A stretch of DNA of 64,000 nucleotides, taken from contig CACZFF010000012.1 of the NCBI GenBank assembly GCA_902780385.1, positions 31,316 to 95,315 of the forward strand, given 5' to 3'. The notes beneath the pieces are model-generated. The model was not told the DNA's origin and searched no databases. It saw only the letters and a list, made by a program, of their open reading frames with translations. Of this stretch, positions 11,377 to 27,000 are shown piece by piece. The DNA comes from an uncultured Lachnospiraceae bacterium (GTDB lineage Bacteria; Bacillota; Clostridia; Lachnospirales; Lachnospiraceae). The translations under genes were made by a program, and so were the position numbers. Every line of letters starts with the position of its first letter. Position 1 is the stretch's first letter.

Positions 11377-12648
11377 TTAGAGACCTGCGTCCATCTTCCT
11401 GACCAGATCCGGAAACATTGTGATGCTGCGGCGCAGGATGCCGTTCATATAGGCGATCGCAGTCCCGTAGTTGGTAACCGGCACTCCCTGTGAAACGGCA
11501 CGGCCGATCCTGCTCTGCATCTCCCTGCCGTTCAGCATACAGCCGCCGCAGTGGATGACAAGGGCATAGGGGGTGAGATCCTCGGGAAAACCTGTTCCGG
11601 ATGAAGTCTCAATGGAAATCTCTTTTCCGGTGCGGGTCTTGAGCCAGCGTGGAATCTTTACGGTTCCGATGTCGTCACACTGGCGGTGGTGGGTGCACCC
11701 CTCCGCGATCAGTACCCTGTCCCCGTCCTTCAAGCGGTCGATGTGGGCGGCGCCCAGAACGGCCTTCTCAAGAAAGCCTTTATAGCGGGCCATCAGGATG
11801 GAAAAAGAGGTGAGAGGAATGCTCTCGGGAACGTCCTTCATCACAGAGGCAAAGGCCTGGCTGTCCGTGATCACCATGGCCGGCGGATTGCGCAGGCTGT
11901 CCAGTGTATTGACAACATTGTCCTCCTGCACACAGAGCGCGCTGCAGCGGGAATCCAGAATATCGCGTATCACCTGCTGCTGGGGAAGGATCAGCCTGCC
12001 CTTGGGTGCAGCTTTATCAATGGGGATGACCAGTATGACCTGGTCCCCCTTCTGCAGAAGATCTGAGACAAGACGGGGCTCCGCGCCCTGCCCGGCTTTC
12101 CACTCCCGGTATATGTCGGCGATCTTCTCCTTGAGCGCATAGATCCCGTTCCCTGTTTTCGCACTGACGGAAATAAGGGTTTTGCCGGTCCCCTGAAGGT
12201 CCCCGGAAAAAAGCTGCTTTTCAGCCTGCACATTGCCGTCTGTCTTTTCCTGCAGCAGGTCCGATTTATTGTTGGCGATAATGCAGGGGATTTTCCTCTC
12301 CTCGAAGAGACCCAGCAGTTCACGGTCGCAGTCACAAAGACCTCTTGTGCCGTCCACGACAAGAACAGCCAGGTCTGTCTGTGCAAGGATCTGTCTTGTC
12401 TTTTTGACACGCAGCTCACCCAGCATGCCTTCATCATCAAACCCGGGTGTATCGATGATCACGACTGGTCCCAGCGGCAGCAGCTCCATCGCCTTTTTGA
12501 CCGGATCTGTCGTCGTGCCCTCCACCTGTGAGACCACGGCCAGATCCTGTCCTGTCACTGCGTTGACAACACTGGATTTTCCGGCATTTCTGCGGCCGAA
12601 GAAACCGATATGGATCCGCTCACCCGAAGGGGTATCATTCAAACTCAT
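11377..12648 (-). CDS. hydF: [FeFe]-hydrogenase maturation GTPase HydF
   Basis: HydF is the scaffold on which the diiron [2Fe] subcluster with CO, CN and bridging dithiolate ligands is assembled before transfer to HydA. The 423-residue protein has an N-terminal GTPase domain (P-loop GRRNAGKSS, DTPGFDDEG, NKSD), a dimerisation middle and the C-terminal iron-sulfur motif: Cys-x-His in EGCTHHRQCDD and HCGGC about 50 residues later. All cluster ligands are intact. It is the last gene of a 15.6-kb minus-strand cluster. hydE and hydG, its normal partners, are not in the window. The start has a GGAG site six bases upstream. Confidence 0.93.
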   Translation of the reverse strand: MSLNDTPSGERIHIGFFGRRNAGKSSVVNAVTGQDLAVVSQVEGTTTDPVKKAMELLPLGPVVIIDTPGFDDEGMLGELRVKKTRQILAQTDLAVLVVDGTRGLCDCDRELLGLFEERKIPCIIANNKSDLLQEKTDGNVQAEKQLFSGDLQGTGKTLISVSAKTGNGIYALKEKIADIYREWKAGQGAEPRLVSDLLQKGDQVILVIPIDKAAPKGRLILPQQQVIRDILDSRCSALCVQEDNVVNTLDSLRNPPAMVITDSQAFASVMKDVPESIPLTSFSILMARYKGFLEKAVLGAAHIDRLKDGDRVLIAEGCTHHRQCDDIGTVKIPRWLKTRTGKEISIETSSGTGFPEDLTPYALVIHCGGCMLNGREMQSRIGRAVSQGVPVTNYGTAIAYMNGILRRSITMFPDLVRKMDAGL

Positions 12649-12674
12649 GCCTATACTCCTTATTCATCTAACCA

Positions 12675-13646
12675 TTACCAGGGCAGCCCCTCGTCCATGC
12701 TCTCCCATCCGCCTTCCGAAAAGCCTTCAAAACCGTCTGCCTGATTGCTGCCGGTGGCTTCCGGAATCTGAAAAACCTGCAGATTATCGTAGGAATAATC
12801 TTCCTGTGCTCCGCCATAGGAAACATCTGCCGGAACGCTGTTCAGAAGGGACAGGAATGCCGGATCATCATAATCTGCGGCAGCAGGAGCCTTGTTACTC
12901 CGGCCGTCAGCATTTTGTTTCTGCTGACCCCCATAAGGTCTGCGGCCCGCTGCAGGCACAGTATTCTGCCCAGGTATTGACACACCTGATTTTTCTTCCG
13001 CCCTCTGCTGTTCCTTTTTCTCCCTCCGCTCTTTTCTGAGCCTCTCGCGGATGACATTGCCCTCGGTCAGGATCCTGCGGAAGTTGCTGATCAGGAAAAG
13101 CTGTGCCTTTTCGTTATAAAAGATGCGATAGTATTCATTGGGAAACGTTCCGGCTTTCTCCGAGTATATCCCGATTTCCTCACCCTTCTGTGTGGGAATA
13201 TTTGTTTCCTTTGAAATATCTTTCATGAAGGTTTTCTCAAGATAGCCGTTCTCACGAAGCCAGTCCGTGATCATGGTAGCCTGAAAACCCAGAGATTCAT
13301 CTTCAGGCAGAAGCTCCGCAAGCTGTTTGAGAAAATAGGAAATCTGCTGGTCCCTCTGAAAACGGAATCCCTGCAGGATATCATAAGGAAAGGTCTCGGC
13401 GATCGAGGGCTTTGGCGCCCTTGCCGCCTTCGGGACTTTCGGCACTTTTCCAACGATACCGCCGGTACTTTTAACATCCGTCAGGATCTCACTGACAAAT
13501 TGGAGACAACGGTTTACGTTGGGATTTGTCAGGACTTCATTTTCCGGGGCAGGACGATTTGTGACAGGGTTCCTGCCGGATACCATACGGTTGATATACT
13601 GGATCGCGACCTCCAGCCGCTTAATGTCATATTCGCCCACTTTCAC
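12675..13646 (-). CDS. Protein of unknown function inside the nitrogenase-like/Hyp cluster
   Basis: A 323-residue protein, not recognised. The first 215 residues look globular and mostly helical. Residues about 215-250 are a charged Arg/Lys/Glu segment and the tail is low complexity and acidic, ending GWESMDEGLPW. It has a single cysteine and no membrane segment, so it is unlikely to be a cluster-binding enzyme. It starts with GTG (AAAGGAAAT just upstream), overlaps the extended end of the gene before it by 20 bases and is followed by hydF after 26 bases. It may be an unrelated passenger or an accessory protein. Confidence 0.6.
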   Translation of the reverse strand: MKVGEYDIKRLEVAIQYINRMVSGRNPVTNRPAPENEVLTNPNVNRCLQFVSEILTDVKSTGGIVGKVPKVPKAARAPKPSIAETFPYDILQGFRFQRDQQISYFLKQLAELLPEDESLGFQATMITDWLRENGYLEKTFMKDISKETNIPTQKGEEIGIYSEKAGTFPNEYYRIFYNEKAQLFLISNFRRILTEGNVIRERLRKERREKKEQQRAEEKSGVSIPGQNTVPAAGRRPYGGQQKQNADGRSNKAPAAADYDDPAFLSLLNSVPADVSYGGAQEDYSYDNLQVFQIPEATGSNQADGFEGFSEGGWESMDEGLPW

Positions 13647-15051
13647 ATTTCCTTTCTGCTGCCTTATTAAATGATGCCGATGTCAGAATTCCATCTGATG
13701 ATGTAAAGGTCAAAAGGTATCCAATGGCTCTGAGTCTCGTCAAGCTGCACAAACAGCCGAAGGGCCTTGTGCAGCTCCGAAGGAGATGCTGCGTGCCAGG
13801 TACTTGGCCGCTGTTTTTTAGCGGCCTTAGTACCGCTGCCAGCGAGGGTAGAGCGAGAGCGTGCCCAAGGCGTTTGTGCAGCTTGACGAGACGGTGTATG
13901 ATCAATCGAAAAAGATCCGGAATCTCATTGAGTAAAATTCGGCCGGAAAAGGCCAGGTGGGGAAGGGAAATCAGTTCACAGCCCGCAGGAAGGACGTCCT
14001 TGTAATAGGGATCTGCGACAACTTTTGTCCGTCCAAGCTTTCCCAGCGCCTCCTCGAGTTCTTCTTCTCCGCAGAGTGCGGCGTCTTTTGGTCCCAGAAA
14101 GACATCAGCCTCTTCTGTGGCACCGAAAACATAGGTCGGTGCTCCGATCCGCTCCTCTGCCTGGGCGGCCAGGGAAGTCATGATAACCGGCTCCCCGATG
14201 AAACAGACGGGAAGGGTATCATTGACCGGCTCCCGGCGGTCACGGAAGGGAAACTGGTTTTCCCCTGTCTGTACAGCCCTGGTGACCGCTTCAAAGTAAA
14301 CCTCTTCGGTACCTTCTGCAGGGAAACCTGCTGTGAAGGGGATCCCGAATTTCCGGAACATATATCGGGCTGCAGCAAGGCCGGATGAAGAGACTACCAG
14401 ATTGACGTCAGCCATTGCGCTCTTGCGGATTCCTTCCAGATCATCTCCCATAGCCCAGCAGGAAACGATCTCAAAACCTGCCGCCTCAACTTTTGAACGC
14501 AGACTTTCCACACTTGTTGCTGCCGCGAAATCTAGAGGGGTCATCCCCAGGATGTTACAGCGAAGAGACCTGTCTGTCAGAGCCGTCTTGTCAGTCAGGG
14601 CCGGTTCCGTCACAAAGTTCTCCGCGAGCTGCCGGAATGCAAGGCCGGCTCCGCGGGTATAATCGTGCATACCATTGGTGGTGATATAAAAGGTCGGGAT
14701 GCCGGTCTCCTCCTCGACCAGGCGGCTGATGGCGTCAAAGTCCATTCCGGTTATGTAGGGAATGGGGGAATTGGCTATGGCAATGAACCCGGGAGAATAA
14801 ATACGGGCCGACTCTGTGATATCGCGGATCAGGTCCTCATCGCTCCCCATGATCGCTTCCATCTCATTGAGACCGGAAATAAAAATCAGACTGTCATGGT
14901 CATACCAGCGGATCTCATCATGTGTGTTATAGGTCGAATTGCATCCGGATGGATCGTGCATGACGACCATTCCGCCGAGTTCAAACAGGGCGCTGCATAC
15001 GCCGGATACATCTCCGGTGTAGACGGGTATTTTTCTGAAAACCTGTCGCAT
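13627..15051 (-). CDS. Nitrogenase component-1-like subunit (NifK/NifN type), C-terminus altered by a repeat
   Basis: A 474-residue protein of the nitrogenase component-1 superfamily, which also covers NifDK, NifEN, BchNB and CfbD. Residues 20-50 read GGMVVMHDPSGC then NTHDEIRWY, with Cys19 and Cys37 as possible cluster ligands, followed by ISGLNEMEAIMGSD. It is clearly paralogous to the C-terminal half of the fused protein at 23401, which has GGICVICDAGGC and FSAGLRDMDAILGRD at the same places. Similarity ends near LPHLAFSG (about residue 370). A palindromic element encodes residues about 387-439, so the last 90 residues are probably not native. It likely pairs with the product of the gene starting at 16613. 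Confidence 0.8.
   Translation of the reverse strand: MRQVFRKIPVYTGDVSGVCSALFELGGMVVMHDPSGCNSTYNTHDEIRWYDHDSLIFISGLNEMEAIMGSDEDLIRDITESARIYSPGFIAIANSPIPYITGMDFDAISRLVEEETGIPTFYITTNGMHDYTRGAGLAFRQLAENFVTEPALTDKTALTDRSLRCNILGMTPLDFAAATSVESLRSKVEAAGFEIVSCWAMGDDLEGIRKSAMADVNLVVSSSGLAAARYMFRKFGIPFTAGFPAEGTEEVYFEAVTRAVQTGENQFPFRDRREPVNDTLPVCFIGEPVIMTSLAAQAEERIGAPTYVFGATEEADVFLGPKDAALCGEEELEEALGKLGRTKVVADPYYKDVLPAGCELISLPHLAFSGRILLNEIPDLFRLIIHRLVKLHKRLGHALALPSLAAVLRPLKNSGQVPGTQHLLRSCTRPFGCLCSLTRLRAIGYLLTFTSSDGILTSASFNKAAERKCESGRI
13734..13892. repeat. 159-bp palindromic multi-hairpin element inserted in a nitrogenase-like gene
   Basis: Perfect 21-bp terminal inverted repeats (13734-13754 and 13872-13892, GTCTCGTCAAGCTGCACAAA...) enclose a GC-rich core. 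The core holds a second long hairpin at 13799-13834 (GGTACT / AGTACC outside, GGCCGCT / AGCGGCC inside) and at least two more small stems. It carries no gene of its own. It sits in the last 270 bases of the component-1-like gene and supplies in-frame codons there. The structure suggests a non-autonomous mobile or structured element. Confidence 0.8.
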
Positions 15052-15077
15052 ATTGGCCTAGTCTCCTTCCCGATGAT

Positions 15078-16613
15078 TTATAGAACGCAGGCGCAGCCCT
15101 GTCCCTTGCGGGGCACAATGGACCTGGTATCCTTTTCATTGAGCCAGGCGTCTTCCATGAGGGCAGCGAGCTTTTCGATGCCGGAATTACCCCAGATTCC
15201 GCCGTAATCTACGAGGTTGACAAAATGGGCGGTACCGCCGAACCAGGCGGCTTTGGGGCCCAGAGCCAGCATTTTCCCTTCGTTCTCCGCATTGTGGAGC
15301 ACGCGCATTTTGGGATGGATCGTCGCGTTGAGTATGAGGTCAGGGCAATTCTTCTGCAGCCACAGAAAGTCCTCTTCCTCCTCGGGAAGAATGGCATCCA
15401 GATAGACACGGGTCACACGAAATCCCGCCTCCAGAAGACGTCTGGCAAGACTCAGCACGCGGGGATTCAGGATATAGTCAATGGTGATCTCCGTATCCCC
15501 GATCAGGCCCAGGGCATGCTGCAGGGCTTTCGAAGCCGAAGATTCATCCCTAATGGATCCCTCAAGATGATCTGTTTCTGCAGCATCCGGCTCTCCGGCA
15601 TCTGTCCCGGCAGTTCCTGCAGTTCTGACAGCTCCGGCAGTTCCGGCAGCACCGGCAGTCTGCTGCAGATTGTCCCTGAGAGCGCTGCGGAGCTTTGAGA
15701 GTTCTTGCCTTATCCGGTCTTCACCGCATACCGGCGGCAGGTATAAAAAGGGCCTTCCCAGACGTTTAGCCAGCTGATAAACACCATGGACGCCCAGGGG
15801 GCTGCGGGTTATAAAAAGCCCTGCCGAGCCGATCCGCAGATAATCATCGTAGTTTTCACAAGGGATCATAAAGCTGTATGCCTCCTGGGCCTCCTTGTCC
15901 GTTACAGCTTTCCGAAGATAAGAGATCCCGATGCGCTCACCGTGCTTTTTCCAGTCGTTGAGCTGCAGGATCCTTCCGCCGGCTTCCCTGACTGTCTGCG
16001 CAATATCACTGTCGGGATCCAGTGCCTGATTGTCGCCGAGCACACAGACCAGTCCGGGATCCACCGGCAGCGGACGCACGGGGCGGAACATGGACTCCTT
16101 GAGTTTCTGCTCCGGTGTCAGGCCGGTCTTCTGCATGACGGGATCCATCCAGCATCGCATAAAATCGATGTCCGGAAAGCGTTCCTCCAGTGTCTTGAAT
16201 ACAAAAGCGGCATCAGTGCCCACAAAGTGATGCAGGCACACCAGGAAAACAGTCACAGCGCGGGGGCGATAAGGAAGGCGGCGGATGACGTCTGACACAC
16301 CCTCTATTGTGATCGTCTCCAGATTCTGGTCGTAGAGATCATTTTCCTCGATGAGAACACTGGAAAAACGGTCCCCTGCCCCCATCTCCGCAGCCGTCAG
16401 TACGACACCGCGCATACAATTGTCCGCACAGACATAAATCTGGTGACAGTCCGGAACCATAAGACCGATATGGACTATATTCCATGTGCCGTGTACAGGG
16501 GCGTTGAACTCCAGCCTGTGGGCAAAGGGCACAGGGAATTCTGCGTCCGCGATCCGGACGGCGGCATCTTTTTCATCAATATGGAAATCCGGTCGTTCTA
16601 CTCTGCGAAGCAT
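15078..16613 (-). CDS. Nitrogenase component-1-like subunit (NifD/NifE type)
   Basis: A 511-residue protein of the nitrogenase component-1 superfamily. A cysteine group lies near the N-terminus (Cys56, Cys62, Cys66 in PDCHQIYVCADNCMRG) and another Cys at 126 in VFLVCLHHFVGTD, the places where NifD and BchN proteins hold a bridging cluster. Residues about 325-355 are a low-complexity Ala/Gly/Thr insert. The C-terminus ends GCACVL, an unusual Cys-rich tail. It is paralogous to the N-terminal half of the fused protein at 23401. It follows nifH-like A by 66 bases and precedes the NifK/N-type subunit by 26, so the three probably form one enzyme. Substrate unknown. Confidence 0.8.
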   Translation of the reverse strand: MLRRVERPDFHIDEKDAAVRIADAEFPVPFAHRLEFNAPVHGTWNIVHIGLMVPDCHQIYVCADNCMRGVVLTAAEMGAGDRFSSVLIEENDLYDQNLETITIEGVSDVIRRLPYRPRAVTVFLVCLHHFVGTDAAFVFKTLEERFPDIDFMRCWMDPVMQKTGLTPEQKLKESMFRPVRPLPVDPGLVCVLGDNQALDPDSDIAQTVREAGGRILQLNDWKKHGERIGISYLRKAVTDKEAQEAYSFMIPCENYDDYLRIGSAGLFITRSPLGVHGVYQLAKRLGRPFLYLPPVCGEDRIRQELSKLRSALRDNLQQTAGAAGTAGAVRTAGTAGTDAGEPDAAETDHLEGSIRDESSASKALQHALGLIGDTEITIDYILNPRVLSLARRLLEAGFRVTRVYLDAILPEEEEDFLWLQKNCPDLILNATIHPKMRVLHNAENEGKMLALGPKAAWFGGTAHFVNLVDYGGIWGNSGIEKLAALMEDAWLNEKDTRSIVPRKGQGCACVL

Positions 16614-16679
16614 CTGATATACCTCTACACTTCATGTTAGATTGCATGTTTATCTCATGAGCGGGTGGATCCCTGTTTT

Positions 16680-17567
16680 TTAAGCGCCGCTGCCGGCCAG
16701 GGTTTTAGCGGCGATGGCATCCGCCAGCCTCTTGTACTCCTGCGCCATCTCCGAATCGGGATATGCCTGCAGGAGGCACTGTCCCTCCTCCTCGGCTTTC
16801 AGCACCAGAGGACTGCGGGAAAGAGTTCCTGCCAGTTCTGAATGCAGTTCTGCGGCCAGAGCAGACACCCTGCTCTCCTCGTCCGGAACATCCCTGCGGT
16901 TGAGGATGATGCCCGACATGCGGGCATAGCCGCGGCCGCTGAAATTCTCCAGGGCAAGGCCGATGTTGGCTGCCGCATAGATCGACATGGTCTCGCCGGA
17001 CGTCATAATGAAGACATGATCTGCATAGCCCTTGCGCATGGGCATGGCAAAACCGCCGCAGACAACATCGCCCAGAACATCGAAAAGAACGACATCCGGA
17101 CAGAAAAGATCGTAAACGCCGATCTCCTCCATTTTTTCCAGCGCCGTGATGACAGCGCGGCCGGCACATCCCTGCCCGGGAAGGGGTCCTCCCGCCTCAG
17201 CGCAGAGCACACCGGCATATCCGGTCTGAACAATGTCATGCGCGGAAAAGGGCTTTCTGGAACGGATATGATCCATGACCGTAAAGGAGGCACCCGTGCG
17301 CATCCTCCGGATCATGGCAGCAATATCGGAATCCACCGCCTCATTTTGGGAGTTACCGGCAGTATGCTCACTGCAGATCAGACTGCTGTGTCCGGAAACC
17401 TTGTCCTCCATCCCGGCATTCGCCCGAAGAAGTCTTGTTGAATCGGCTTTGGGATCGCAGCCAACCTGCAGTACTTTCAAACCTCGCTGTGCGAGAGCGA
17501 TGGAAATATTGGACACCGTGGTCGATTTCCCAATGCCGCCTTTTCCGTAAAATGCTATCTTGATCAT
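16680..17567 (-). CDS. NifH-like iron-protein ATPase (copy A)
   Basis: A 295-residue member of the NifH/BchL/CfbC family: a homodimeric ATPase with one bridging [4Fe-4S] cluster that passes electrons to a component-1 partner. The P-loop is [11 protein letters not shown]. Both cluster cysteines are present, Cys134 in GQGCAGR and Cys170 in [11 protein letters not shown]. Compared with copy B (26245) it has about 40 extra residues between 55 and 110, an atypical insertion with many Ser and charged residues. It follows the TM1266-family gene by 22 bases and precedes its probable component-1 subunits. Confidence 0.88.
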   Translation of the reverse strand: MIKIAFYGKGGIGKSTTVSNISIALAQRGLKVLQVGCDPKADSTRLLRANAGMEDKVSGHSSLICSEHTAGNSQNEAVDSDIAAMIRRMRTGASFTVMDHIRSRKPFSAHDIVQTGYAGVLCAEAGGPLPGQGCAGRAVITALEKMEEIGVYDLFCPDVVLFDVLGDVVCGGFAMPMRKGYADHVFIMTSGETMSIYAAANIGLALENFSGRGYARMSGIILNRRDVPDEESRVSALAAELHSELAGTLSRSPLVLKAEEEGQCLLQAYPDSEMAQEYKRLADAIAAKTLAGSGA

Positions 17568-17589
17568 AAAAGAATATCCTCGTCAGTTT

Positions 17590-17835
17590 TTACACTTTTG
17601 AATAGGCAGTCTTCGTGCTGACGCCGTCCAGACGGCCGATCTTGCCGGACATAGCCGTGATCTCAGTCTCGGGGGCATCGACAGCAACACTGATGATGTT
17701 GATGTTTTTTTCGCGGTAGGGAATGCCCATCCGTCCGATTATATAGCGGCGATAAGTGTGCAGAATGTTGTTGACACCCTCGGCGGCATTTTCTTTTTCT
17801 ATAATGATTGCTATTACAGCGACACGTGTATCCAT
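17590..17835 (-). CDS. TM1266-family protein (iron-only hydrogenase system putative regulator)
   Basis: An 81-residue protein starting MDTRVAVIAII. It matches the small ACT-like TM1266 family, which often lies beside FeFe-hydrogenase maturation genes and is thought to be regulatory without proof. Typical features are the VNNILHTYRRYIIGRMGIP segment and the INIISVAVDAP strand. The start at 17835 has GAGGAG four bases upstream; an upstream in-frame ATG adds 14 unlikely residues. It sits directly before nifH-like A, between the hyp genes and the nitrogenase-like subunits, tying the cluster to hydrogenase-type cofactor chemistry. Confidence 0.82.
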   Translation of the reverse strand: MDTRVAVIAIIIEKENAAEGVNNILHTYRRYIIGRMGIPYREKNINIISVAVDAPETEITAMSGKIGRLDGVSTKTAYSKV

Positions 17836-17952
17836 AGACTCCTCTTTATCGAGATATTGTGGTTTGGGGCCGGGCACAATGATCCATGCCCAAAAACGTC
17901 AATTCAAAGACATCAAAAACGGAAGCAAAAAGAGGCGTAAAAATTGACAGAG

Positions 17953-18002
17953 GACAGAGGATCAAAAAAGAATGACCTGACATCATTTTCCAATCCTCTG
18001 TC
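17953..18002 (-). terminator. Intercistronic hairpin between hypE and the TM1266 gene
   Basis: Perfect 10-bp arms (GACAGAGGAT at 17953-17962 and its complement at 17993-18002) enclose a smaller AATGA/TCATT stem. It lies directly after the hypE stop. On the minus strand a short T-run (TTTTTT) occurs inside the loop side, not after the stem, so it may stabilise or attenuate the transcript rather than end it. Confidence 0.5.
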
Positions 18003-18012
18003 TGCTGAAAGA

Positions 18013-19017
18013 TCAGCAGATCCTGGGAAGCAGTTCGTTGCCGGGACGGGGAAGGATGGTCTGGGAGCCGATCTCAGTATTGAGGACGACTCGTCCGGGA
18101 TGGTCTTCTGTCACGGTACCGATGCAGGCAGCACCTTCTGTGTGAGGACTCCTGCGGAGAGTTTCCAGGATGATGTCCTTTTTCTCAGCCGGAGCGATGA
18201 TGACAAGCCGTCCCTCGCATGCAAGATAAAGGGGCTCAAGGCCCAGCATGCCGCATACGCCGCGGACACCGGGATCGACGGGAATGCTCTCCGACTCCAG
18301 GGAAAAACCGACATTGCTCTGTCCGGCGATCTCATAGAGGACCGTGCCCACTCCGCCGCGGGTGGCATCGCGGATAACATGAATATCGGGGGCCGCTGTC
18401 AGGATATTGTTCACAGCGTGCCAGAGAGGCGCACAGTCGCTGGTCACATCGGCCTCGATCCCGTAATCATCCCTGGCGAGCAGGATCGTGCAGCCGTGGC
18501 GGCCGACATCGCCGGTCACGATGACACAGTCTCCCGGCTTTGCCAGCGCTCCGCCGGTCTGAACGCCATCCATAATGCGCCCTACTGCCGTCGTTGTAAT
18601 GAAAACACCGTCCACCTGGCCCTTGCCGGCGACCTTGGTATCACCGGCCACGATGCAGACACCGACTTCCGCGGCGGTTTTTTCCATGGCGGCGGCAATC
18701 TCCTCCAGCCTGACCATGGGAAAGCCCTCTTCGATGACGAAGGCGCATGTCATATACATGGGCTGTGCACCCATGCAGGCCAGATCATTGACTGTGCCGC
18801 AAATGGACAGCTTGCCGATATTTCCGCCCGGGAAGAAGGCCGGGGAGACGATAAAGCCGTCGGTCGACATGGCCATTTTGCCCGCCGGAATCTGGAGCAC
18901 AGCGGCGTCATCCGGTGTAAAAAGTGGATTTTCAAAATGGGCTTTGAATACTTTTTCGATCAGTTCCGATGTCTGTTTTCCGCCGGCACCGTGGGCGAGT
19001 GTAACTGTTTCCTGCAT
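18013..19017 (-). CDS. hypE: Hydrogenase maturation protein HypE
   Basis: HypE dehydrates the carbamoyl group received from HypF to a thiocyanate on its C-terminal cysteine and gives CN to the iron on HypCD. The 334-residue PurM-like protein opens HGAGGKQTSELI, has the ATP-binding GGNIGKLSICGTVND region and ends in PRIC, so the essential terminal cysteine is intact. The AAAGGA site lies seven bases before the ATG. Neighbours hypD, hypC and hypF are all present on the same strand. No NiFe hydrogenase genes are in the window. Confidence 0.95.
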   Translation of the reverse strand: MQETVTLAHGAGGKQTSELIEKVFKAHFENPLFTPDDAAVLQIPAGKMAMSTDGFIVSPAFFPGGNIGKLSICGTVNDLACMGAQPMYMTCAFVIEEGFPMVRLEEIAAAMEKTAAEVGVCIVAGDTKVAGKGQVDGVFITTTAVGRIMDGVQTGGALAKPGDCVIVTGDVGRHGCTILLARDDYGIEADVTSDCAPLWHAVNNILTAAPDIHVIRDATRGGVGTVLYEIAGQSNVGFSLESESIPVDPGVRGVCGMLGLEPLYLACEGRLVIIAPAEKKDIILETLRRSPHTEGAACIGTVTEDHPGRVVLNTEIGSQTILPRPGNELLPRIC

Positions 19018-19131
19018 ATCTGTGTCCTTTCAGATGAGGTTCATGATCAGGTAAATGAACTGCTCAATAACAATACTTACTATCAAAAGTACAAAAGCAA
19101 TATATGCTTTTTCTGCCAATATCTGCCGGCA

Positions 19132-19178
19132 ATATCAATAGCTGATTTCGATATCAATAGCTGATTTCGATATCAATA
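19132..19178. repeat. 19-bp tandem repeat between hypD and hypE
   Basis: The unit ATATCAATAGCTGATTTCG occurs twice in perfect tandem (19132-19150, 19151-19169), followed by a partial third copy. It is an AT-rich minisatellite in the 188-bp hypD-hypE gap, which is otherwise noncoding. Confidence 0.8.
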
Positions 19179-19205
19179 TTTGCTGTCAGCGAATATATAT
19201 TTGTG

Positions 19206-20309
19206 TCACCGGTCTCCGCCGTAGAGGTAGAAGGCGGAACATGCGCCTTCACCGGAAACCATGCATGCGCCGATGGGATGCTCGGGCGTGCAGCCCTTGC
19301 CGAAGACTTTGCAGTCCGAGGGCATGCACTTGCCCTGCAGGACTTCGCCGCAGCGGCAGGCGGGATTCTCGCGCCCCTGCATGGAAGGTATGTTGAATTT
19401 GACGCGCGCATCAAAGGCGGCATATTCCGGCCGGAGCTGTACACCGGACTGCGGAAGCACACCGATCCCTCTCCAGCGGGCGTCACAGGGTTCCATCATC
19501 TCCTCCACCAGGCGCTGTGCTGCGGGCGACCCCTCTGCACGCACCACACGGGGATAGCAGTTTTCAAAAAAGGGGCTGCCTTCCTGTGTCTTTTTGACGA
19601 TCACTGCCAGAGCGGTCATCAGCTCCCTGGCAGTAAAGCCGGCCACGACACCGCTGGTGCCTTCCTCAGCCAGTTTTTCGCAGATCCCGGTCCCTGTGAT
19701 CGCGTGGACATGTCCGGGATAGAGAAAAGCGTCCGTACTGTCCTTCATGGCCGCGTAGGCAGACGGCATGGTCTTATTGGCTGTCAGAATGGAAAAATTG
19801 GTCAGGCCTTCCCTCTGTGCCTCTTTGACGGCAAGACAGGAAGAAGGCGTTGTCGTCTCAAAACCGACAGACAAAAAGACAACCTGCTCCTGCGGATGTT
19901 CTCTCGCATAGGCCACTGCATCCTGGGGGGCATAGACCACCTGGATCCTGGCGCCGGCCGCACGCGCCGCGGCAAGGCTTCCGATCTTTGCAGTCTTTTT
20001 ATCAGATGTCTGTGCGGACGTTCCGAAGGACCCGGGCACACGAACGAGGTCGCCGAATGTACAGATGGTCACATCGCGCTCCATGGCAAGATAGACCGCC
20101 TCATCAATGAAATCCACCGGTGTCACGCAGACCGGACATCCGGGTCCTGAGATCAGCCTGACTTTGTCAGGCAGGATCTGCCTGATCCCCAGGCGGAAGA
20201 TCTCATGTGTATGGGTCCCGCAGACCTCCATGATCCGGATGGGTTTTCCATCGTAACTGTCAATAATGGCGCGCGCACGCGCGATCACATTTTTTTTATT
20301 GTCACTCAT
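19206..20309 (-). CDS. hypD: Hydrogenase maturation protein HypD
   Basis: HypD, with HypC, carries the iron atom that receives two CN and one CO ligands. The 367-residue protein has the conserved redox and iron-site cysteines in EVCGTHTHEIFR and SGPGCPVCVTP, and the C-terminal [4Fe-4S] set CRCGEVLQGKCMPSDC then KGCTPEHPIGAC. All ligand positions are intact. It lies between hypC and hypE in the classical order. The ribosome site is weak. Confidence 0.95.
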   Translation of the reverse strand: MSDNKKNVIARARAIIDSYDGKPIRIMEVCGTHTHEIFRLGIRQILPDKVRLISGPGCPVCVTPVDFIDEAVYLAMERDVTICTFGDLVRVPGSFGTSAQTSDKKTAKIGSLAAARAAGARIQVVYAPQDAVAYAREHPQEQVVFLSVGFETTTPSSCLAVKEAQREGLTNFSILTANKTMPSAYAAMKDSTDAFLYPGHVHAITGTGICEKLAEEGTSGVVAGFTARELMTALAVIVKKTQEGSPFFENCYPRVVRAEGSPAAQRLVEEMMEPCDARWRGIGVLPQSGVQLRPEYAAFDARVKFNIPSMQGRENPACRCGEVLQGKCMPSDCKVFGKGCTPEHPIGACMVSGEGACSAFYLYGGDR

Positions 20310-20365
20310 AACAGGAATTCACCATTACCTTTCAGACCGGCACAAAAAACTTCTTGCCGGTCTCA

Positions 20366-20578
20366 TCAAAACAGAGAACCGAGGACCTCATCGCTCTCCT
20401 CGTCATCCTCCTGGGTGATCTTTGCAATCGCGGCGCCCGCGTGTACCATGACATAGTCGCCCGGCATAAGGTCGTCAAGCAGCTGCGCGGAGATTTCCCT
20501 GCGCGCGCCGGAAGCATCCACGATGGCTGTTCCGTCAGTCTGAAGACGGACGACTCTTGCTGATAATCCAACACACAT
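20366..20578 (-). CDS. hypC: Hydrogenase maturation chaperone HypC
   Basis: A 70-residue HypC/HupF-family protein. The N-terminal MCVGL supplies Cys2, which binds the Fe(CN)2CO unit after Met removal. The remainder is the usual small beta barrel with DLMPGDYVMVHAG, and the C-terminal tail is acidic. In NiFe hydrogenase synthesis HypC hands iron to the large subunit; no large subunit is encoded here, so its acceptor is unknown. GAGAGGA lies before the ATG. It sits between hypF and hypD. Confidence 0.93.
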   Translation of the reverse strand: MCVGLSARVVRLQTDGTAIVDASGARREISAQLLDDLMPGDYVMVHAGAAIAKITQEDDEESDEVLGSLF

Positions 20579-20643
20579 TTTATTATCCTCTCTTTATTTA
20601 TAGTTATCTATAGTTGTGGCCATGGGCGGATGCCCGCAGACAT

Positions 20644-23247
20644 TTATGATCCCTTCCGGGTCCGCATCATGGCAGCGGCAGCCTGTCCAAGGGCGATTCC
20701 GCCGTCATTGGGCGGGACCAGATGGTGGATCAGGACTTCAAAGTCTCTTTCCCGGAGCAGGTCTTCGGTAAGTGTCAGGAGCAGGCGGTTCTGATAACAT
20801 CCGCCGGTGAGGGCCACTGTTTCGATTCCCTTTTCTTGGCGTATCCTGACGCAGGCCTGTACAGCGAGCTCCGCAAGGAAGAGATGGAAATACCAGGCCA
20901 GCTTCTCGGGATCCTGACCCTTGAGCCGCCGCTCCAGAAGCTGCGCAAACAAAAGGTCTGTCGGCAGATGGGAGCTTACTTGATCCGGCTGCAGGCGGCT
21001 TCTGATGTCCATCAGTTCATCCTCCTGCCTTTGAATGGTTCCGGCGGCAAGCTTTTCGGCGTACCGCTCCGCCGCGAATTCAAGTTCTATGGAAGCCTCG
21101 CCTTCATATGTGGACTCGCGCCGGATGCCAAGCATGGCGCTCACGCTGTCAAAAAGGCGGCCAGCGCTGGTCGATGTGACGGCCTGCATCTTTTTTTCCG
21201 CCATCATGCGCTGCACTTTGGCATTCTGAAGATCACAGATTTCAAGGGACTCCATGATGGAAAAATACTGTCCGGCCGGATCCGGGGGATTGGAAGGATC
21301 CCTTTCCTGCTGTGGGACAGCTTCCGATTTTCCCTTGTTGTCTGCCTCCGATTGACTCGATTTACAGTAGTCCCAGATCATGGAGGCCGCGATGCGCCAG
21401 CCCTGGCGGGGTGCGCTGTCTCCTCCGATCTGTGTAAAGGGCGCGATGCTGTATTCGCGGGTAAAATCATGATAATCCGCAGTCAGGATCTCTCCTCCCC
21501 AGATCGTGCCGTCCGTTCCGTAGCCGGTACCGTCGAAGGAAACTCCGATGACAGGCTCTGTCCGATCATTTTCCGCCATGCAGGAAAGGACGTGGGCGTA
21601 ATGATGCTGGATACGGAGAATCGGGATCTTCCTGCTTTCTGCGATCTCTTCTGCCACCGTTGTGGCATTGTATTTGGGATGGAGATCACAGACAACTGCC
21701 TGCGGTGTCACTTCGAGCAGGGTCTCCATACGTCCGATCGTCTCCTGCAGGGCGCGCACAGTGCGGAGGTCCTCCAGGTCTCCGACATAGGGAGACAGAT
21801 AAAAGAGATTGCCCGAGGCGATGCAGAAGGTGTTTTTCAGCTCACCGCCGACTGCCAGGACACAGCCATTCATCTCCCCCGTGAGCAGCATGGGGAGCGG
21901 CGCATATCCGCGGGAACGACGGATCATATAGGGCTCGCCGCGGTGAAAATCCATGACGGAATCGTCGGCGCGGATCCGGATCAGCCGGTCGTGGCTGAGA
22001 ATACAGTCACAGAATGCCGAGAGCTCCGAAAGGACGTCCTGATCGTCACGGCAGATGGGGGCGCCGGAGACGTTTCCGCTTGTCATGACCAGACAATCCG
22101 GCATCTTCAGTCCGTCATCATAGGTAAAAAGAAGATGCTGCAGCGGCGCATAGGGAAGCATGACACCCACCTTGGGATTACCGGGCGCAATCGCCTGAGC
22201 CAGAAGGGGGTCCTTTCCCTCAGTTTCTATATCAGACGGATCTGCAAAAGGCTTTTTCCCGCCGGACCCTGCCTGGTCGTCTGCCATTATCGATCCGGTC
22301 TTTCTTTTGTCCAGAAGAAGGATAGGCTTCTGGTGGCCTGTCAGGATCTGATGCTGTTCCTCATTGAAAAGACATTCGCGGCGAACCGTTTTCTCGTCTT
22401 TCATCATGACCGCAAAAGGCTTGGCCGGACGCCGTTTTCTGTCGCGCAGCTTCTGCACTGCCTGCTCGCTGGTCGCGTCACAGCAAAGGTGAAAACCGCC
22501 GATTCCCTTGACTGCCACAATGCCGCCTTCGAAAATGGTCCTGCGGGCGGCCGTGATGGCATCCCGTCCTATGATCTGCGCCCTGACCCCTCCCCGGGTA
22601 GTCTTTACAGGCTGGTCCGTTTTTTCAAATTCTTTCCGGTCCCCTGTCCTGTCCTGATCCTTTTTTACTGGGAGCAGGTAGACCTGCGGGCCGCAGTCGT
22701 TGCAGCAGACGGGCTGGGCGTCATACCTGCGTGACCAGGGACCGTAATATTCCTCCGCGCAGGGTTTGCACATGGGGAACATCTTCATACTGGTGCGCTC
22801 GCGGTCATAGGGCAGGGCATCCAGGATGGTCATCCTGGGACCGCAGCATGTGCAGTTGATAAAGGGATGGAGATACCTGCGGTTTCGGGGATCATACATC
22901 TCCTGTTCGCACTCCTCGCAGATGGCGATGTCAGGCGAAATATAGATCTCACCGCTGGTCTTCTCACTTTCTATGATCGAAAAAGACTCGAACACAGCGG
23001 CATCCTCCACCGGTTTCTCATCAATCTTCAGGATCGCGGCACGGCGGGGAGGATGTTCGTTGAGGAGTGTCTCAAAGGACTTGATCTGTGCAGCTGTCCC
23101 CTGGGCGAAAATCTCCACATAGGGGCCCTTGTTACAGACACTGCCGTGGATCCCGGCGGTTTGGGCGTGACGATCCACCGTCGGGCGGAAGCCGACGCCC
23201 TGCACGATTCCATATACACGAAAACGCACGGTTGTAATGCTACTCAT
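20644..23247 (-). CDS. hypF: Carbamoyltransferase HypF
   Basis: HypF converts carbamoyl phosphate and ATP to carbamoyl-adenylate and carbamoylates HypE, making the precursor of CN ligands. The 867-residue protein has all four domains: an acylphosphatase with VQGVGFRP (about 12-20), two zinc fingers (CEECEQ / CTCC and CKPC / CCNDC, about 110-190), a YrdC-like ATP domain (KGIGGFHLCCDATS, then KRRPAKPFAVM) and a Kae1-like transferase with QHHYAHVLS and PPNDGGIALGQ. It is slightly longer than usual because of charged inserts near 205-225 and 330-350. The gene precedes hypC in the cluster. Confidence 0.95.
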   Translation of the reverse strand: MSSITTVRFRVYGIVQGVGFRPTVDRHAQTAGIHGSVCNKGPYVEIFAQGTAAQIKSFETLLNEHPPRRAAILKIDEKPVEDAAVFESFSIIESEKTSGEIYISPDIAICEECEQEMYDPRNRRYLHPFINCTCCGPRMTILDALPYDRERTSMKMFPMCKPCAEEYYGPWSRRYDAQPVCCNDCGPQVYLLPVKKDQDRTGDRKEFEKTDQPVKTTRGGVRAQIIGRDAITAARRTIFEGGIVAVKGIGGFHLCCDATSEQAVQKLRDRKRRPAKPFAVMMKDEKTVRRECLFNEEQHQILTGHQKPILLLDKRKTGSIMADDQAGSGGKKPFADPSDIETEGKDPLLAQAIAPGNPKVGVMLPYAPLQHLLFTYDDGLKMPDCLVMTSGNVSGAPICRDDQDVLSELSAFCDCILSHDRLIRIRADDSVMDFHRGEPYMIRRSRGYAPLPMLLTGEMNGCVLAVGGELKNTFCIASGNLFYLSPYVGDLEDLRTVRALQETIGRMETLLEVTPQAVVCDLHPKYNATTVAEEIAESRKIPILRIQHHYAHVLSCMAENDRTEPVIGVSFDGTGYGTDGTIWGGEILTADYHDFTREYSIAPFTQIGGDSAPRQGWRIAASMIWDYCKSSQSEADNKGKSEAVPQQERDPSNPPDPAGQYFSIMESLEICDLQNAKVQRMMAEKKMQAVTSTSAGRLFDSVSAMLGIRRESTYEGEASIELEFAAERYAEKLAAGTIQRQEDELMDIRSRLQPDQVSSHLPTDLLFAQLLERRLKGQDPEKLAWYFHLFLAELAVQACVRIRQEKGIETVALTGGCYQNRLLLTLTEDLLRERDFEVLIHHLVPPNDGGIALGQAAAAMMRTRKGS

Positions 23248-23400
23248 GGCAGTGTTTTCCTTTCGGACCGAATGTCCTTACTATTTGCAAGAATATCGCT
23301 GCGGTTTTCAAATAGCAGCTGCTTTTGTAAAAATACCGCTGCTGTTTAAGAAAAATGTCTTTTTATTTTTTCGAAAAATTCTTGTCTGATGATCTGAGTA

Positions 23401-26112
23401 TCAGTCGGGTTTCTGCTCACCGGAAACAGCAAAGTGAGGCAGATGATAAAGCCTGACTGGCAGTCCCGCCAGAACAGGGGCAAGGGAGCCGTCGGCGATC
23501 ACGTTGTCATAGTGCCTCTCCTGCACCAGGGAGCGCAGGTCTGTCTCCTCGCGCAATCGGACATCGTCCGCCTTCTGCAGTCCGGGCTGCATCATGAAGA
23601 ATCCCGCCGTATCAGCCTGCATTCCTTTTTTTCGGAGAATACCGCAGATAGTATCTGCCAGGACCTGCTGGTGGACCACCAGGGTCCTGCCGGCAGGCAT
23701 GTCGGGAGCAGCTTTTTTCAGTATGGCAGAAGCCTGCGGAATACAATATTCCCAGGGCGTGCCGTATTGTTTCTCCAGCCATTTGGCCGCCCCTGTGCCT
23801 GCGGGAGAAAGGACAATGTTTTTCTCTGCAAAACAAAGTGCCGGAAGATCCCCCGCCTTCGTTCCGGCGCCGCAGCAGATCATCCTGTCATATCCCTGCT
23901 GTCTGACCCATTCTCTCAAATCTGTTTCAGAAAGGATTCCCGCAAAATCCAACGGGGAATATCCCCAAATGCCGACGGTCCTGCCGGGGGCCGCAGTATC
24001 ATTGGTATCATTAGTATCTTTATCGTCCTGTGTCGGACAGAAGGCCTCCACGAGGGCAAGATAACTCTTTTCCAGTCCCCTGTCGTAATACTCCATACCG
24101 TCCGTATTTACACCTACGACAGGGAGGCCCGTCTTTTTGGAGGCCATCCTGCAGAGGGCGCGGTAGTCAGTGCCTATGACAGCCGGAACCGGGGTTCCGA
24201 CGATGGCTGCGAAGGATGCAGGAATGATCCCGGCCGCATCGGAAAGTTTTTCCACCAGACGGTCATCGCGGCCCAGGATCGCGTCCATATCGCGAAGGCC
24301 GGCGCTGAAGACAGCGCTCTGGCTGCCGAACCAGCGGGGTTCGTCAAAGCCGCAGATATTGCCGGTGCAGCCGCCCGCGTCGCAGATGACACAGATCCCG
24401 CCCATATCATAGAGAACGGAGACCGCGCCGGACTGGTCAGGGGCAAAGGGTGTTGTAAAGCGCCTGAAACCCGCAGGGGTTTTCGCACCATCGAAAATTT
24501 CCGTCCTGCCGGGAATGCAGGGTATCGACTGCCCTGCCCTTACCGGACAGACCGTCGGAATATCCTGAACAGTCTTTTCTTTCTCAGTCAGGGTTTCCGA
24601 AGACGACTGCTCTTCTGTCCTGCCAAGGGAGATTGCAGAAGTAAAGCTGCCGCGGCTTCCGGTTTCCATGGCATCCTTCAGCGCCTGAAAAAGACCAGTA
24701 ACCGCCCGGTAGCCGAAAGGCTGCACATCCGTGATCCACTGGACGTTTGCTGTCCCGGGATGATACCAGCCGGCATCACGTCCGATGGAGATCGTCACAC
24801 CGGAAGCTGCCGCCTCCTGCGCGTCATAGTGGAGCATGGATGGATGAAGGTTTGAGTAGATCCGTGTCTCAGGGCTCAGCTTATCAAGAAGACCGAGCCA
24901 GACATAGCTGTCTTTATTGACTGTCCCGAAGATCTCCCGCACCCTGAAGCCTTCCCGGACAAGAGCGCAGGCCAGCTCAAAAGGATTGCCGTTCATGGCT
25001 TCGCCGACAGAAAAGACTGCGTCGGGGAAGCTGTTTCGGAAAGCCTCCACAGCCTCTTCTGCTTCGCGTTTGTATCCGGCATCATCAAACTTTGTCTGCA
25101 GAACCCTTCCCAGGGCAGCATACTGGGCTTCGATCCTGTCGATCTGATAGAACCTGCTCATTTCGATAAAGGGAATGCCGAGTCTTTCCTGCAGATCATA
25201 GGCAGCCGGACGGGCCTCCGGATTCAGGACGATATTGAAATTGGCTTCCGCCATTTCCTGGAAGGCATCGTAGTCGGGGCAGGCGCCGATCTGGCGGACT
25301 TTGCGCACGCCGGCCTGGCGCAGGATCGGGATCAGCTCACTGCCTCTGTCAGTATCAGCGGACGGAGCGGTCCCCGTATCCTGAGCAGAGGACGAGACGC
25401 CCCCTCTATCCTGATCCTTGGATTGGCTGCTCTCTCCGTTTGTATCCGGGGCCTGCCGGCTGCTGATCGAATACTCTGCTTCGCTGCCTTGGAGGGGGGC
25501 AAAAAAGCCCAGCAGATTGACAGAGGTCGGTTTTTTCTTTCTGGGTTCCAGAAGCTCATAGATCGACTGGCGGACATGCACCATGGGGGGCTTTCTCCCC
25601 TCACGGGTCAGGGCGTACATATAGCAGGGCTGGACGCGGACACCGGGAACCTTTTCCTCGGCGCGGCGGCAGATACGTTCCATGTCAGTGCCGAGCAGGG
25701 CATCCACACAGGTAATACAGATCATGACAACTTTGGGGCGCTTTCCCTGTCCCTCAAGGCCGCGGCAGAGCTCCGCAACAGCTTTGGGGATCTTTTTCAA
25801 ATGGCGGCCGGTGACTAGATCTGTCTCATCCATCGTCAGATAGAAAAAGCGGTCCTCGTAACCCGGCATGCGGCTGATGGCGGAAGTGTTCCTGCCGCAG
25901 CAGCCGGGAGAAACGATCAGCATGACCGAACCGGGAACGGCAAGGCCTGCGCGCTTGACCCCATAACCCTCCGCACCGGGCGAGTTAAAGGCCAGGGTGG
26001 CCGGCGAACTGTAGATCAGATGGGTTGTGGACACAAGCTCACGGGGAATATCATTGCTTCCGCGCGCGGTAAGCTCCGCCGCTGTGTAAAATACTGGTTT
26101 TTCTTTTTGCAT
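23401..26112 (-). CDS. Fused two-half nitrogenase component-1-like protein
   Basis: A 903-residue protein made of two nitrogenase component-1 domains that are normally separate subunits. The N-half (1 to about 500) has paired cysteines 71-72 in SPGCCGRNTS and 132/135 in CITCVDALLGTD, and a Ser/Asp-rich insert about 215-265. After a Ser/Thr/Glu linker (about 505-545), the C-half has four cysteines in ICVICDAGGC and TGNICGFDEP, then FSAGLRDMDAILGRD. The two halves are paralogous to the separate genes at 15078 and 13627. It follows nifH-like B by 132 bases and precedes hypF by 153. It lacks features that would identify it as N2-fixing NifDK, and its substrate is unknown. Confidence 0.8.
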   Translation of the reverse strand: MQKEKPVFYTAAELTARGSNDIPRELVSTTHLIYSSPATLAFNSPGAEGYGVKRAGLAVPGSVMLIVSPGCCGRNTSAISRMPGYEDRFFYLTMDETDLVTGRHLKKIPKAVAELCRGLEGQGKRPKVVMICITCVDALLGTDMERICRRAEEKVPGVRVQPCYMYALTREGRKPPMVHVRQSIYELLEPRKKKPTSVNLLGFFAPLQGSEAEYSISSRQAPDTNGESSQSKDQDRGGVSSSAQDTGTAPSADTDRGSELIPILRQAGVRKVRQIGACPDYDAFQEMAEANFNIVLNPEARPAAYDLQERLGIPFIEMSRFYQIDRIEAQYAALGRVLQTKFDDAGYKREAEEAVEAFRNSFPDAVFSVGEAMNGNPFELACALVREGFRVREIFGTVNKDSYVWLGLLDKLSPETRIYSNLHPSMLHYDAQEAAASGVTISIGRDAGWYHPGTANVQWITDVQPFGYRAVTGLFQALKDAMETGSRGSFTSAISLGRTEEQSSSETLTEKEKTVQDIPTVCPVRAGQSIPCIPGRTEIFDGAKTPAGFRRFTTPFAPDQSGAVSVLYDMGGICVICDAGGCTGNICGFDEPRWFGSQSAVFSAGLRDMDAILGRDDRLVEKLSDAAGIIPASFAAIVGTPVPAVIGTDYRALCRMASKKTGLPVVGVNTDGMEYYDRGLEKSYLALVEAFCPTQDDKDTNDTNDTAAPGRTVGIWGYSPLDFAGILSETDLREWVRQQGYDRMICCGAGTKAGDLPALCFAEKNIVLSPAGTGAAKWLEKQYGTPWEYCIPQASAILKKAAPDMPAGRTLVVHQQVLADTICGILRKKGMQADTAGFFMMQPGLQKADDVRLREETDLRSLVQERHYDNVIADGSLAPVLAGLPVRLYHLPHFAVSGEQKPD

Positions 26113-26174
26113 GAATAGAAAGCATCCTTATCGAATTCTTCAAATTTCTCTATAGATGTATGTCAGAGTCAGGG

Positions 26175-26250
26175 GCATGGCCTCGCCATGTGGAGCAATC
26201 GACTTTTACTCCCTTGGTGGAGGCAGTCGCGCTGCCATGGCGGTTTACTG
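26175..26250 (-). repeat. 76-bp dispersed repeat, copy 1
   Basis: This segment matches 35623-35698 on the opposite orientation at 73 of 76 positions. It contains a GCATGGC-CTC-GCCATG hairpin and a GCCATGGC palindrome. It begins on the last codons of nifH-like B: the CAGTAA that encodes Gln-stop is also the repeat end. It occupies most of the gap between nifH-like B and the fused component-1 gene. Confidence 0.85.
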
Positions 26251-27000
26251 AGGCTTGTCCATGAGCTTCTGTGCCAGTTCCAGGAAGGTGCGGCTGACAG
26301 GAAGGCCGGGGTCGGCCTCGATGGTGGTCATGCCGCGGTCCTCGCAGCGGGTGATATCATCACTGCGGGGGACTTCACCCACGATCTCCAGACTCTTGGA
26401 ATCCGCAAAGGCACGGACTTTCTCATCCTCGCCCACGACATTGCGGTGGTTGAGGATCACACCCCTGAGACGGGCATAGCTTCTGTCCTCGAAGTTCTCA
26501 ACGGCGGTCGCGATATTGTTGGCCGCATAGAGTGCCATTTTTTCACCCGATGTGACGATCAGGACCTGCTCCGCATATCCTTCGCGGATAGGTGCTGCAA
26601 ATCCGCCGCAGACCACGTCGCCCAGGACATCGTAGAGGACAACATCCGGCTTCCATGTCTCGAACAGACGCAGGTCCTCCAGCAGCTGGAAGGTTGCAAT
26701 GATCCCTCTGCCGGCGCAGCCAAGGCCGGGAGTAGGGCCGCCGGTCTCAATACAGAGGATTCCGCCGAAACCGACGCGGGAAATCTCATCCAGCGTCTCG
26801 GGATCTTCGTCCTCCTCCCGCAGATAGTTCATGACGGGCCTCAGGGGCTGCCCGCCCAGAAGATTGATGGTGGAATCCGCCTTGGGGTCACAGCCGATCT
26901 GGATCACCCGTTTTCCGAGTGTCGCGAAGGCCGCCGCAAGATGACTTGTCACTGTTGATTTACCGATTCCGCCTTTGCCGTAAATAGCGATTTTGATCAT
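26245..27000 (-). CDS. NifH-like iron-protein ATPase (copy B)
   Basis: A 251-residue NifH/BchL/CfbC-family ATPase, closer to canonical NifH in length and spacing than copy A. The P-loop is [11 protein letters not shown]. The [4Fe-4S] ligands are Cys95 in GLGCAGRG and Cys131 in [11 protein letters not shown], nearly the same numbers as in Azotobacter NifH (97 and 132), and the following Arg is conserved. It is the first gene of the 15.6-kb cluster and is followed by the fused component-1 protein, its likely partner. The AAGGAG ribosome site lies inside a hairpin (27007-27040), which suggests regulated translation or attenuation. Nitrogen fixation is not indicated. Confidence 0.9.

Follow-up and report, generated by a model that had tools for sequence, protein, structure and literature searches.

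A 64,000-nucleotide stretch of DNA from an uncultured Lachnospiraceae bacterium (assembly GCA_902780385.1, contig CACZFF010000012.1, positions 31,316 to 95,315; hereafter the window) holds a gene cluster that we believe takes the place of HydG and builds the [2Fe] part of the H-cluster of [FeFe]-hydrogenases. We give this reading a probability of roughly 0.78, the step performed by each module within it being speculative. Twelve co-directional open reading frames at 11377-27000, all on the minus strand and separated by gaps of 22-188 bases with one 20-base overlap, make up the cluster, as a first-pass annotation of this DNA had already described. They encode two nitrogenase-like modules, A and B, together with HypF, HypC, HypD, HypE, a TM1266-like protein, an uncharacterised protein and HydF. 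Many bacteria of the gut and many acetogens carry clusters of this kind. The carbon monoxide (CO) and cyanide (CN) of the H-cluster are attributed to HydG. In the standard route, as outlined in a passage of PMC11736057, tyrosine is the substrate from which HydG produces an Fe(Cys)(CO)2(CN) synthon; HydE uses this synthon to form a diiron unit, which HydF completes. Since HydE and HydF stay while HydG is gone, something must deliver a CO/CN iron unit; the only other families known to make one, in the form of Fe(CN)2CO, are HypFCDE, according to the relevant part of PMC9431212. We infer the replacement of HydG from features that are themselves observed: gene content and order, the conservation of metal-binding residues, the absence of HydG and the presence of HydE.

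HydG and the cluster across genomes

The genome that contains the window (96 contigs, 92.28% complete) encodes HydF, a HydE (C16) and a HydA with the H-cluster motifs TSCCP, IPCTAKK and EIMACPGGC. A profile search of this 92.28% complete genome returned no HydG over the cut-off, the best match standing at 1.3e-50. The same pattern recurs on a wider scale. In a class-level sample of 391 genomes, where module B was called by a profile of its component-1 subunit D at E <= 1e-180, HydG was found in 0/11 module-B genomes versus 240/380 others (Fisher p 2.3e-5, kinship ignored). Weaker nitrogenase-like matches served as a specificity control, and 7/13 genomes with such matches had HydG. The split is visible even within genera: six genomes of genus g212 have module B without HydG and three have HydG without module B, while module-B and HydG genomes of genus g292 divide two to one. 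In a family-level sample of 150 genomes, 86 of them with HydF, HydG was present in none of the 8 HydF genomes with module B versus 69 of the 78 without it (p 4.6e-7, kinship ignored); module B was read here from the neighbourhoods of strong component-1 matches (E below about 1e-40), a procedure that may miss some instances. Fourteen family genomes have HydE and HydF without HydG, and they comprise eight with module B, two with module A only and four with neither. The two samples share G000 and at least four other genomes.

Gene order was compared across a named collection, in which 494 relatives of D were confirmed and the best 80 loci kept; as the best 80 of 494, these loci yield conservation figures that apply to the nearest members of the family. 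They include Clostridium ljungdahlii, C. ragsdalei, C. carboxidivorans, C. drakei, five Blautia genomes, Roseburia faecis, Eubacterium ramulus, Coprococcus comes, Coprococcus catus, Faecalicatena contorta, and metagenome genomes of Coriobacteriaceae and Atopobiaceae. Across these relatives module B (NifH_B, D and K) immediately precedes hypF-hypC-hypD-hypE; hydF, hydE and the TM1266 gene lie closer to module A (NifH_A, C1x and C1y). The first-pass annotation had raised the question of an order unique to this genome; HypF, C, D and E in fact adjoin module B in all 62 of the 62 loci that reach 7 kb past D, and this recurrence makes the arrangement more than chance. The module-A pair is present in 53/62 of these long loci, and HydE and/or HydF in 21/80 loci; HydG occurs in 0/80 of the module-B loci. 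Three loci (L102, L107, L114) run NifH_B, D, HydE, HydF, K, an order that places hydE and hydF inside the reductase gene set itself, and L218 carries HypF, C, D, E, TM1266, NifH_A, C1x, C1y, HydF and HydE in a single run. Genomes with HydG, as recognised by profile, such as L185, instead run TM1266, hydE, hydG, hydF, and the TM1266-like gene is likewise found beside hydE-hydG-hydF in L191 and L193. The system studied has HydE, HydF, TM1266 and HydA in common with HydE-HydF-HydG maturation, and differs from it in having HypFCDE and two nitrogenase-like modules in place of HydG.

Genome-wide searches were extended to 50 of the 80 genomes, selected by hand to favour longer contigs and named isolates; a pair of them (L070 and L143) are apparently the family-sample genomes G124 and G025. 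HydE was found in 48/50 of these module-B genomes and HydG over the cut-off in 2/50. A quick tree of HydF, with Shimodaira-Hasegawa-like approximate likelihood ratio support only and without L070, L143 and rows of less than 40% identity or 75% coverage, intermixes proteins of the HydG route with those of the cluster route, a pattern that would follow from a HydF able to be supplied by either route. At least six switches between the routes fall on starred branches of this tree (eight switches in all), which argues for repeated exchange of the routes and not for one inherited accident. At the 75% level no HydE residue distinguishes the two routes (36 versus 20 rows), and three mild substitutions do so in HydF (28 versus 20 rows).

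Parts of the cluster and their metal-binding residues

Module B consists in the window of NifH_B, a NifH-like reductase of 251 amino acids (26245..27000, minus strand as for all genes of the cluster; Pfam Fer4_NifH, 286.9 bits), and of a 903-residue component-1-like protein in which D and K are fused (23401..26112; Oxidored_nitro, 151.1 bits over three stretches, above the gathering score). The fusion, noted at first pass, holds for the window, whereas most relatives have separate D and K genes. Module A comprises the 295-residue reductase NifH_A (16680..17567; Fer4_NifH, 267.1 bits) and two component-1 subunits, C1x (15078..16613) and C1y (13627..15051; Oxidored_nitro, 89.7 bits, above the gathering score). 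Pfam thus supports two of the three component-1 calls made initially. The third, C1x, scores below the Oxidored_nitro cut-off (18.4 versus 28.6 bits) and is supported by an hhalign match of its family to the D family of module B (E 2.7e-44) and by the fold of a relative's AlphaFold model (predicted local distance difference test, pLDDT, 90.0), which matches nitrogenase component 1. The C1y family in turn matches the K family (E 5.9e-74). On the strength of these alignments and of the C1x model, the component-1 pairs of the two modules can be regarded as sister pairs, C1x being D-like and C1y K-like.

Both reductases keep a pair of cysteines, which we take to be the Fe-protein cluster ligands: Cys95 and Cys131 of NifH_B in 82/82 relatives, Cys134 and Cys170 of NifH_A in 40/40. 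The two window copies score 305.8 and 274.7 bits against the NifH equivalog cut-off of 394.35; NifH_B also lies under the cut-offs for CfbC (290.5 versus 402), BchL (202 versus 345.15) and BchX (195.7 versus 331.2), and NifH_A is under all four. Membership of NifH, CfbC or BchL was rejected on these grounds. The placement of the two copies, which the first-pass annotation had left to a tree, agrees as far as that tree extends: in a quick tree of 55 rows, built without any CfbC, BchX or Mar sequence, NifH_A and NifH_B relatives form two separate groups outside the NifH clade, with support of 27 for module B as one side, 77 for module A and 95 (starred) for the branch separating module B from the rest. 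CfbCD, BchLNB and MarHDK share with the studied modules the architecture of a NifH protein and a component-1 partner; the NifH copies fall below the CfbC and BchL cut-offs, and the likeness to MarHDK is one of fold alone, at 13-15% identity. Clusters with FecBCD-type importers (e.g. in Treponema saccharophilum) also have a NifH-like and two component-1 genes, but none was seen with hyp or hyd genes, and their NifH proteins sit on separate branches of the tree. The window NifH_A is longer than most relatives seen (295 versus about 250-270 residues) and has a long tree branch (0.9); its profile match is split into two stretches, which suggests an internal insertion. A further NifH and component-1 pair occurs at L058 7891-11139 (G091) and L063 3797-7093 (G071), both in genomes with module B; its NifH is sister to module A in the tree, and some 5.5 kb separate the L058 pair from a HydA gene.

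With the NifEN scaffold the component-1 proteins share their fold and a NifH-type partner. Among solved sequences the D profile is nearest to NifE; when the D of a relative was modelled with AlphaFold, the model matched nitrogenase component 1 first (4wes_B, template modelling score 0.70) and NifEN next. The fused D-K protein nonetheless differs from NifE and NifEN in scoring far below their equivalog cut-offs (94.2 and 67.8 bits versus 505.1 and 1229). Its Cys71, Cys72, Cys132 and Cys135 are kept in 85/85 relatives; the columns of two cluster cysteines of NifE, Cys62 and Cys124, are kept in D, that of Cys62 alone in K and in C1y. The columns of NifD Cys275 and His442, the ligands of the iron-molybdenum cofactor (FeMo-cofactor), contain no Cys or His in D or C1y. 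These columns rest on hhalign, which gave no usable alignment of C1x with NifD or NifE, of K with NifK or NifD, or of C1y with NifK. C1x has its own conserved residues, Cys66, Cys126 and His128 in 64/64 relatives and a C-terminal Cys507 in 61/64. The overall pattern would fit a bridging iron-sulphur cluster without FeMo-cofactor, a pattern that part of PMC3464626 describes for such proteins.

The maturation genes were identified by scores above NCBIfam curated cut-offs: the carbamoyltransferase HypF (20644..23247; TIGR00143, 708.6 bits versus 466.1), HypC (20366..20578; TIGR00074, 57.5 versus 48), HypD (19206..20309; TIGR00075, 368.8 versus 192.8), which has no second copy in this genome, HypE (18013..19017; TIGR02124, 401.5 versus 251.6) and the H-cluster scaffold GTPase HydF (11377..12648; TIGR03918, 557.3 versus 325.55), which has the cluster motif CxH...HCxxC. 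The TM1266-like protein (17590..17877) matches PF21699 with 108.8 bits. HypC Cys2 and the C-terminal Cys334 of HypE are kept in 69/69 rows each and HypD Cys30, Cys58 and Cys61 in 72/72; these cysteines presumably carry the ligand chemistry and, as they are kept in all rows compared, the ligand machinery looks complete. HypA and HypB are not in the cluster, no genome-wide search for them having been made.

A possible route to the H-cluster and its rivals

The first-pass annotation had proposed that the cluster makes or uses a CO/CN-ligated iron cofactor with the help of a nitrogenase-type reductase. The comparative evidence fits this proposal, and the product would most likely be the [2Fe] part of the H-cluster. 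Carbamoyl phosphate would be the source from which HypF and HypE make cyanide, with HypC-HypD assembling the iron unit, Fe(CN)x(CO)y, as they do in [NiFe]-hydrogenase maturation. Module B, driven by adenosine triphosphate, might then convert this unit into the one-cyanide, two-CO iron synthon normally supplied by HydG, for instance by reductive exchange of cyanide for CO, or by making or supplying CO. Module A, as a NifEN-like scaffold or a reductase, could pass the iron unit on to HydE, leaving HydE and HydF to complete the [2Fe] unit and insert it into HydA. The assignment of a step to each reductase is speculative, and nothing in the scheme is less certain than how the two modules share the work. 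Two variant clusters bear on the latter, L057 6531-15622 (G117) and L061 5562-13654 (G134), where module A and HydF accompany a Peripla_BP_2/FecCD/ABC importer in genomes without HypD and HydG; HydE also lies inside the G117 cluster. A FecBCD-type importer in the clusters of HypD-less genomes suggests that module A works with HydE and HydF and that there can be other sources of the iron unit. What is imported could be such a unit or a metal needed by the cofactor.

Several observations weigh against a replacement of HydG by the cluster. HypCDEF are known for Fe(CN)2CO and the H-cluster needs units of the Fe(CN)(CO)2 type, so that an unproven conversion is required. C. drakei and C. thailandense hold both module B and HydG, and profile searches did not find HydE in 2/50 module-B genomes; the searches of these 50 covered HydG, HydE and the [NiFe] large subunit. 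Seven family genomes with HydF and without HydG (G011, G047, G048, G114, G122, G128 and G142) have neither module, so the absence of HydG can have other causes; G047 holds a HydG fragment, and G011 and G128 are 86% and 69% complete. The G117 and G134 genomes have module A, HydE and HydF with neither HydG nor HypD, and would need another source of CN and CO. Neither the family counts nor the class counts come from phylogenetically independent genomes. Finally, many family genomes have HydA-like proteins without HydE, HydF or HydG, so that the family has further unexplained cases: G059, G127, G132 and G149 each encode several PF02906 HydA-like proteins with none of the three maturases over the cut-off.

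One of the genomes without either module, G142, carries HydE, HydF and TM1266 without HydG beside genes of an NMT1-type ABC importer (L037 3681-9747), possibly another HydG-less arrangement.

There are also rival explanations. The cluster might make a different, undescribed CO/CN-iron cofactor for one of the nitrogenase-like proteins themselves, with hydE and hydF as neighbours through shared iron chemistry. Two full reductase modules do exceed the needs of a simple maturase, and the conserved cluster cysteines of the nitrogenase-like pairs could make them enzymes in their own right. We consider this unlikely, as it would leave unexplained both the loss of HydG (0/11 and 2/50) with retention of HydE (48/50) and the position of hydE-hydF between D and K in three loci, and as the NifD Cys275/His442 positions are not kept in D. 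Less likely again is a supply of CO and CN by a divergent HydG or a ThiH-like radical S-adenosylmethionine enzyme, the nitrogenase-like and hyp genes doing something else. Atypical HydG candidates have been proposed for Clostridium acetogens (in a passage of PMC9431212), and many module-B genomes do have a sub-cut-off match to the HydG profile near 1e-55; matches of that strength occur, however, in genomes with a true HydG as well. Moreover 25/50 module-B genomes, C. ljungdahlii and C. ragsdalei included, have no HydG-profile match better than 5.8e-20, and these matches proved, where compared, to be HydE itself (e.g. in G198 and G181). An unrecognised ThiH-like HydG was rejected as a general answer on the matches of these 50 genomes.

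We rate just as low a role of the nitrogenase-like modules in importing or salvaging a compound of iron or of CO/CN, HydE and HydF using a scavenged precursor: the G117 and G134 clusters, with module A and importer and without HypD and HydG, are what such a role would look like, yet the importer form is a minority and module-B loci carry hypFCDE (62/62). Least credible of all is a [NiFe]-hydrogenase as the client of the hyp genes, with the nitrogenase-like genes beside them by accident. HypCDEF are indeed the [NiFe] ligand machinery, and the cluster shares HypF, C, D and E, key cysteines included, with HypABCDEF maturation; a [NiFe] large subunit is even present in 10/50 module-B genomes. The target is nevertheless absent, by profile search, from the genome of the window and from 40/50 relatives, counts that contradict this explanation and on which a [NiFe] role was rejected. 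In the family sample HypD occurs without a [NiFe] large subunit in 7/8 module-B genomes versus 1/15 other HypD genomes (G051), a contrast that speaks against the independence of hyp and nitrogenase-like genes that the first-pass annotation had asked about. One genome, G069, keeps two HypD genes, the first (C12) belonging to the cluster and the second (C22) next to its [NiFe] gene.

With HydG replacement as the preferred reading, we also lean, with less assurance, towards a broader proposal: that this is a second, widespread H-cluster pathway, in which HypF and HypE make cyanide from carbamoyl phosphate, bypassing tyrosine and HydG, and nitrogenase-type reductases convert Fe(CN)2CO of the [NiFe] type into a synthon of the [FeFe] type, that it has been swapped with HydG several times in Clostridia and occurs also in Coriobacteria, and that it explains the active hydrogenase of HydG-less acetogens and gut commensals.

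Published observations and minor features of the locus

The first-pass annotation knew of no described pathway with this gene combination. The bare association has been in print since 2012: a sentence of Dos Santos 2012 (PMC3464626) reports NifHEN-like genes, in two linked copies, beside hydrogenase maturation genes in Coprococcus catus GD/7 and offers a guess at metallocluster assembly. These are very probably the same cluster, and a Coprococcus catus genome of our set (L143) carries it. The sentence draws no link to a missing HydG, to the retention of HydE or to HypCDEF. We found no published link of the cluster to missing HydG, to HydE/HydF retention or to HypCDEF without [NiFe] in the open-access literature, outside which most subscription journals lie.

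The puzzle itself has been reported. Passages of a 2022 study (PMC9431212) report that five of eight Clostridium acetogens have HydE and HydF and lack HydG, with no settled explanation, and that HypCDEF occur without HypAB in five Clostridium species, left unexplained there. The cluster is present in C. ljungdahlii (L140), C. ragsdalei (L133) and C. carboxidivorans (L127), the first two being HydG-less in those passages. According to part of PMC12773636, Blautia luti has two hydrogenase genes, hydA and hydM, both of the [FeFe] type, and measurable hydrogenase activity, and that of B. schinkii is far higher. The B. luti and B. schinkii genomes surveyed here (L080 and L081), from strains that may differ from those assayed, have module B and HydE without HydG or a [NiFe] large subunit.

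If the cluster does replace HydG, the H-cluster would have two independent biosynthetic origins, a nitrogenase-like reductase would gain a role in organometallic ligand chemistry, and three metallocofactor machineries of hydrogen and nitrogen metabolism would meet in one pathway. The two acetogen puzzles, HydE/HydF without HydG and HypCDEF without HypAB, as stated in those passages of PMC9431212, would be answered together, and new gene sets for making [FeFe]-hydrogenases would become available. The reading of gut genomes would change too, the absence of HydG being easily taken to mean no working hydrogenase. A gut survey reports, in a portion of its text, that nitrogenase genes are widely encoded and little transcribed (PMC12578642); some of the genes it counts may be nitrogenase-like genes of the present kind.

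Three smaller features of the locus were noted. The uncharacterised 323-residue protein at 12675..13646 (minus strand) has no Pfam match and among the compared loci found only itself, and for these reasons it is probably a local insertion outside the conserved system. The C-terminal tail of C1y, from residue ~372-383 onwards (window 13627-14000), is an interspersed repeat turned gene tail, since residues ~372-456 recur at 8 other sites of the same genome with 66-90% identity, some of them with stops. Beside the cluster, at window 8941-9933, lies a gene for an NMT1_3 (TAXI-type) solute-binding protein.

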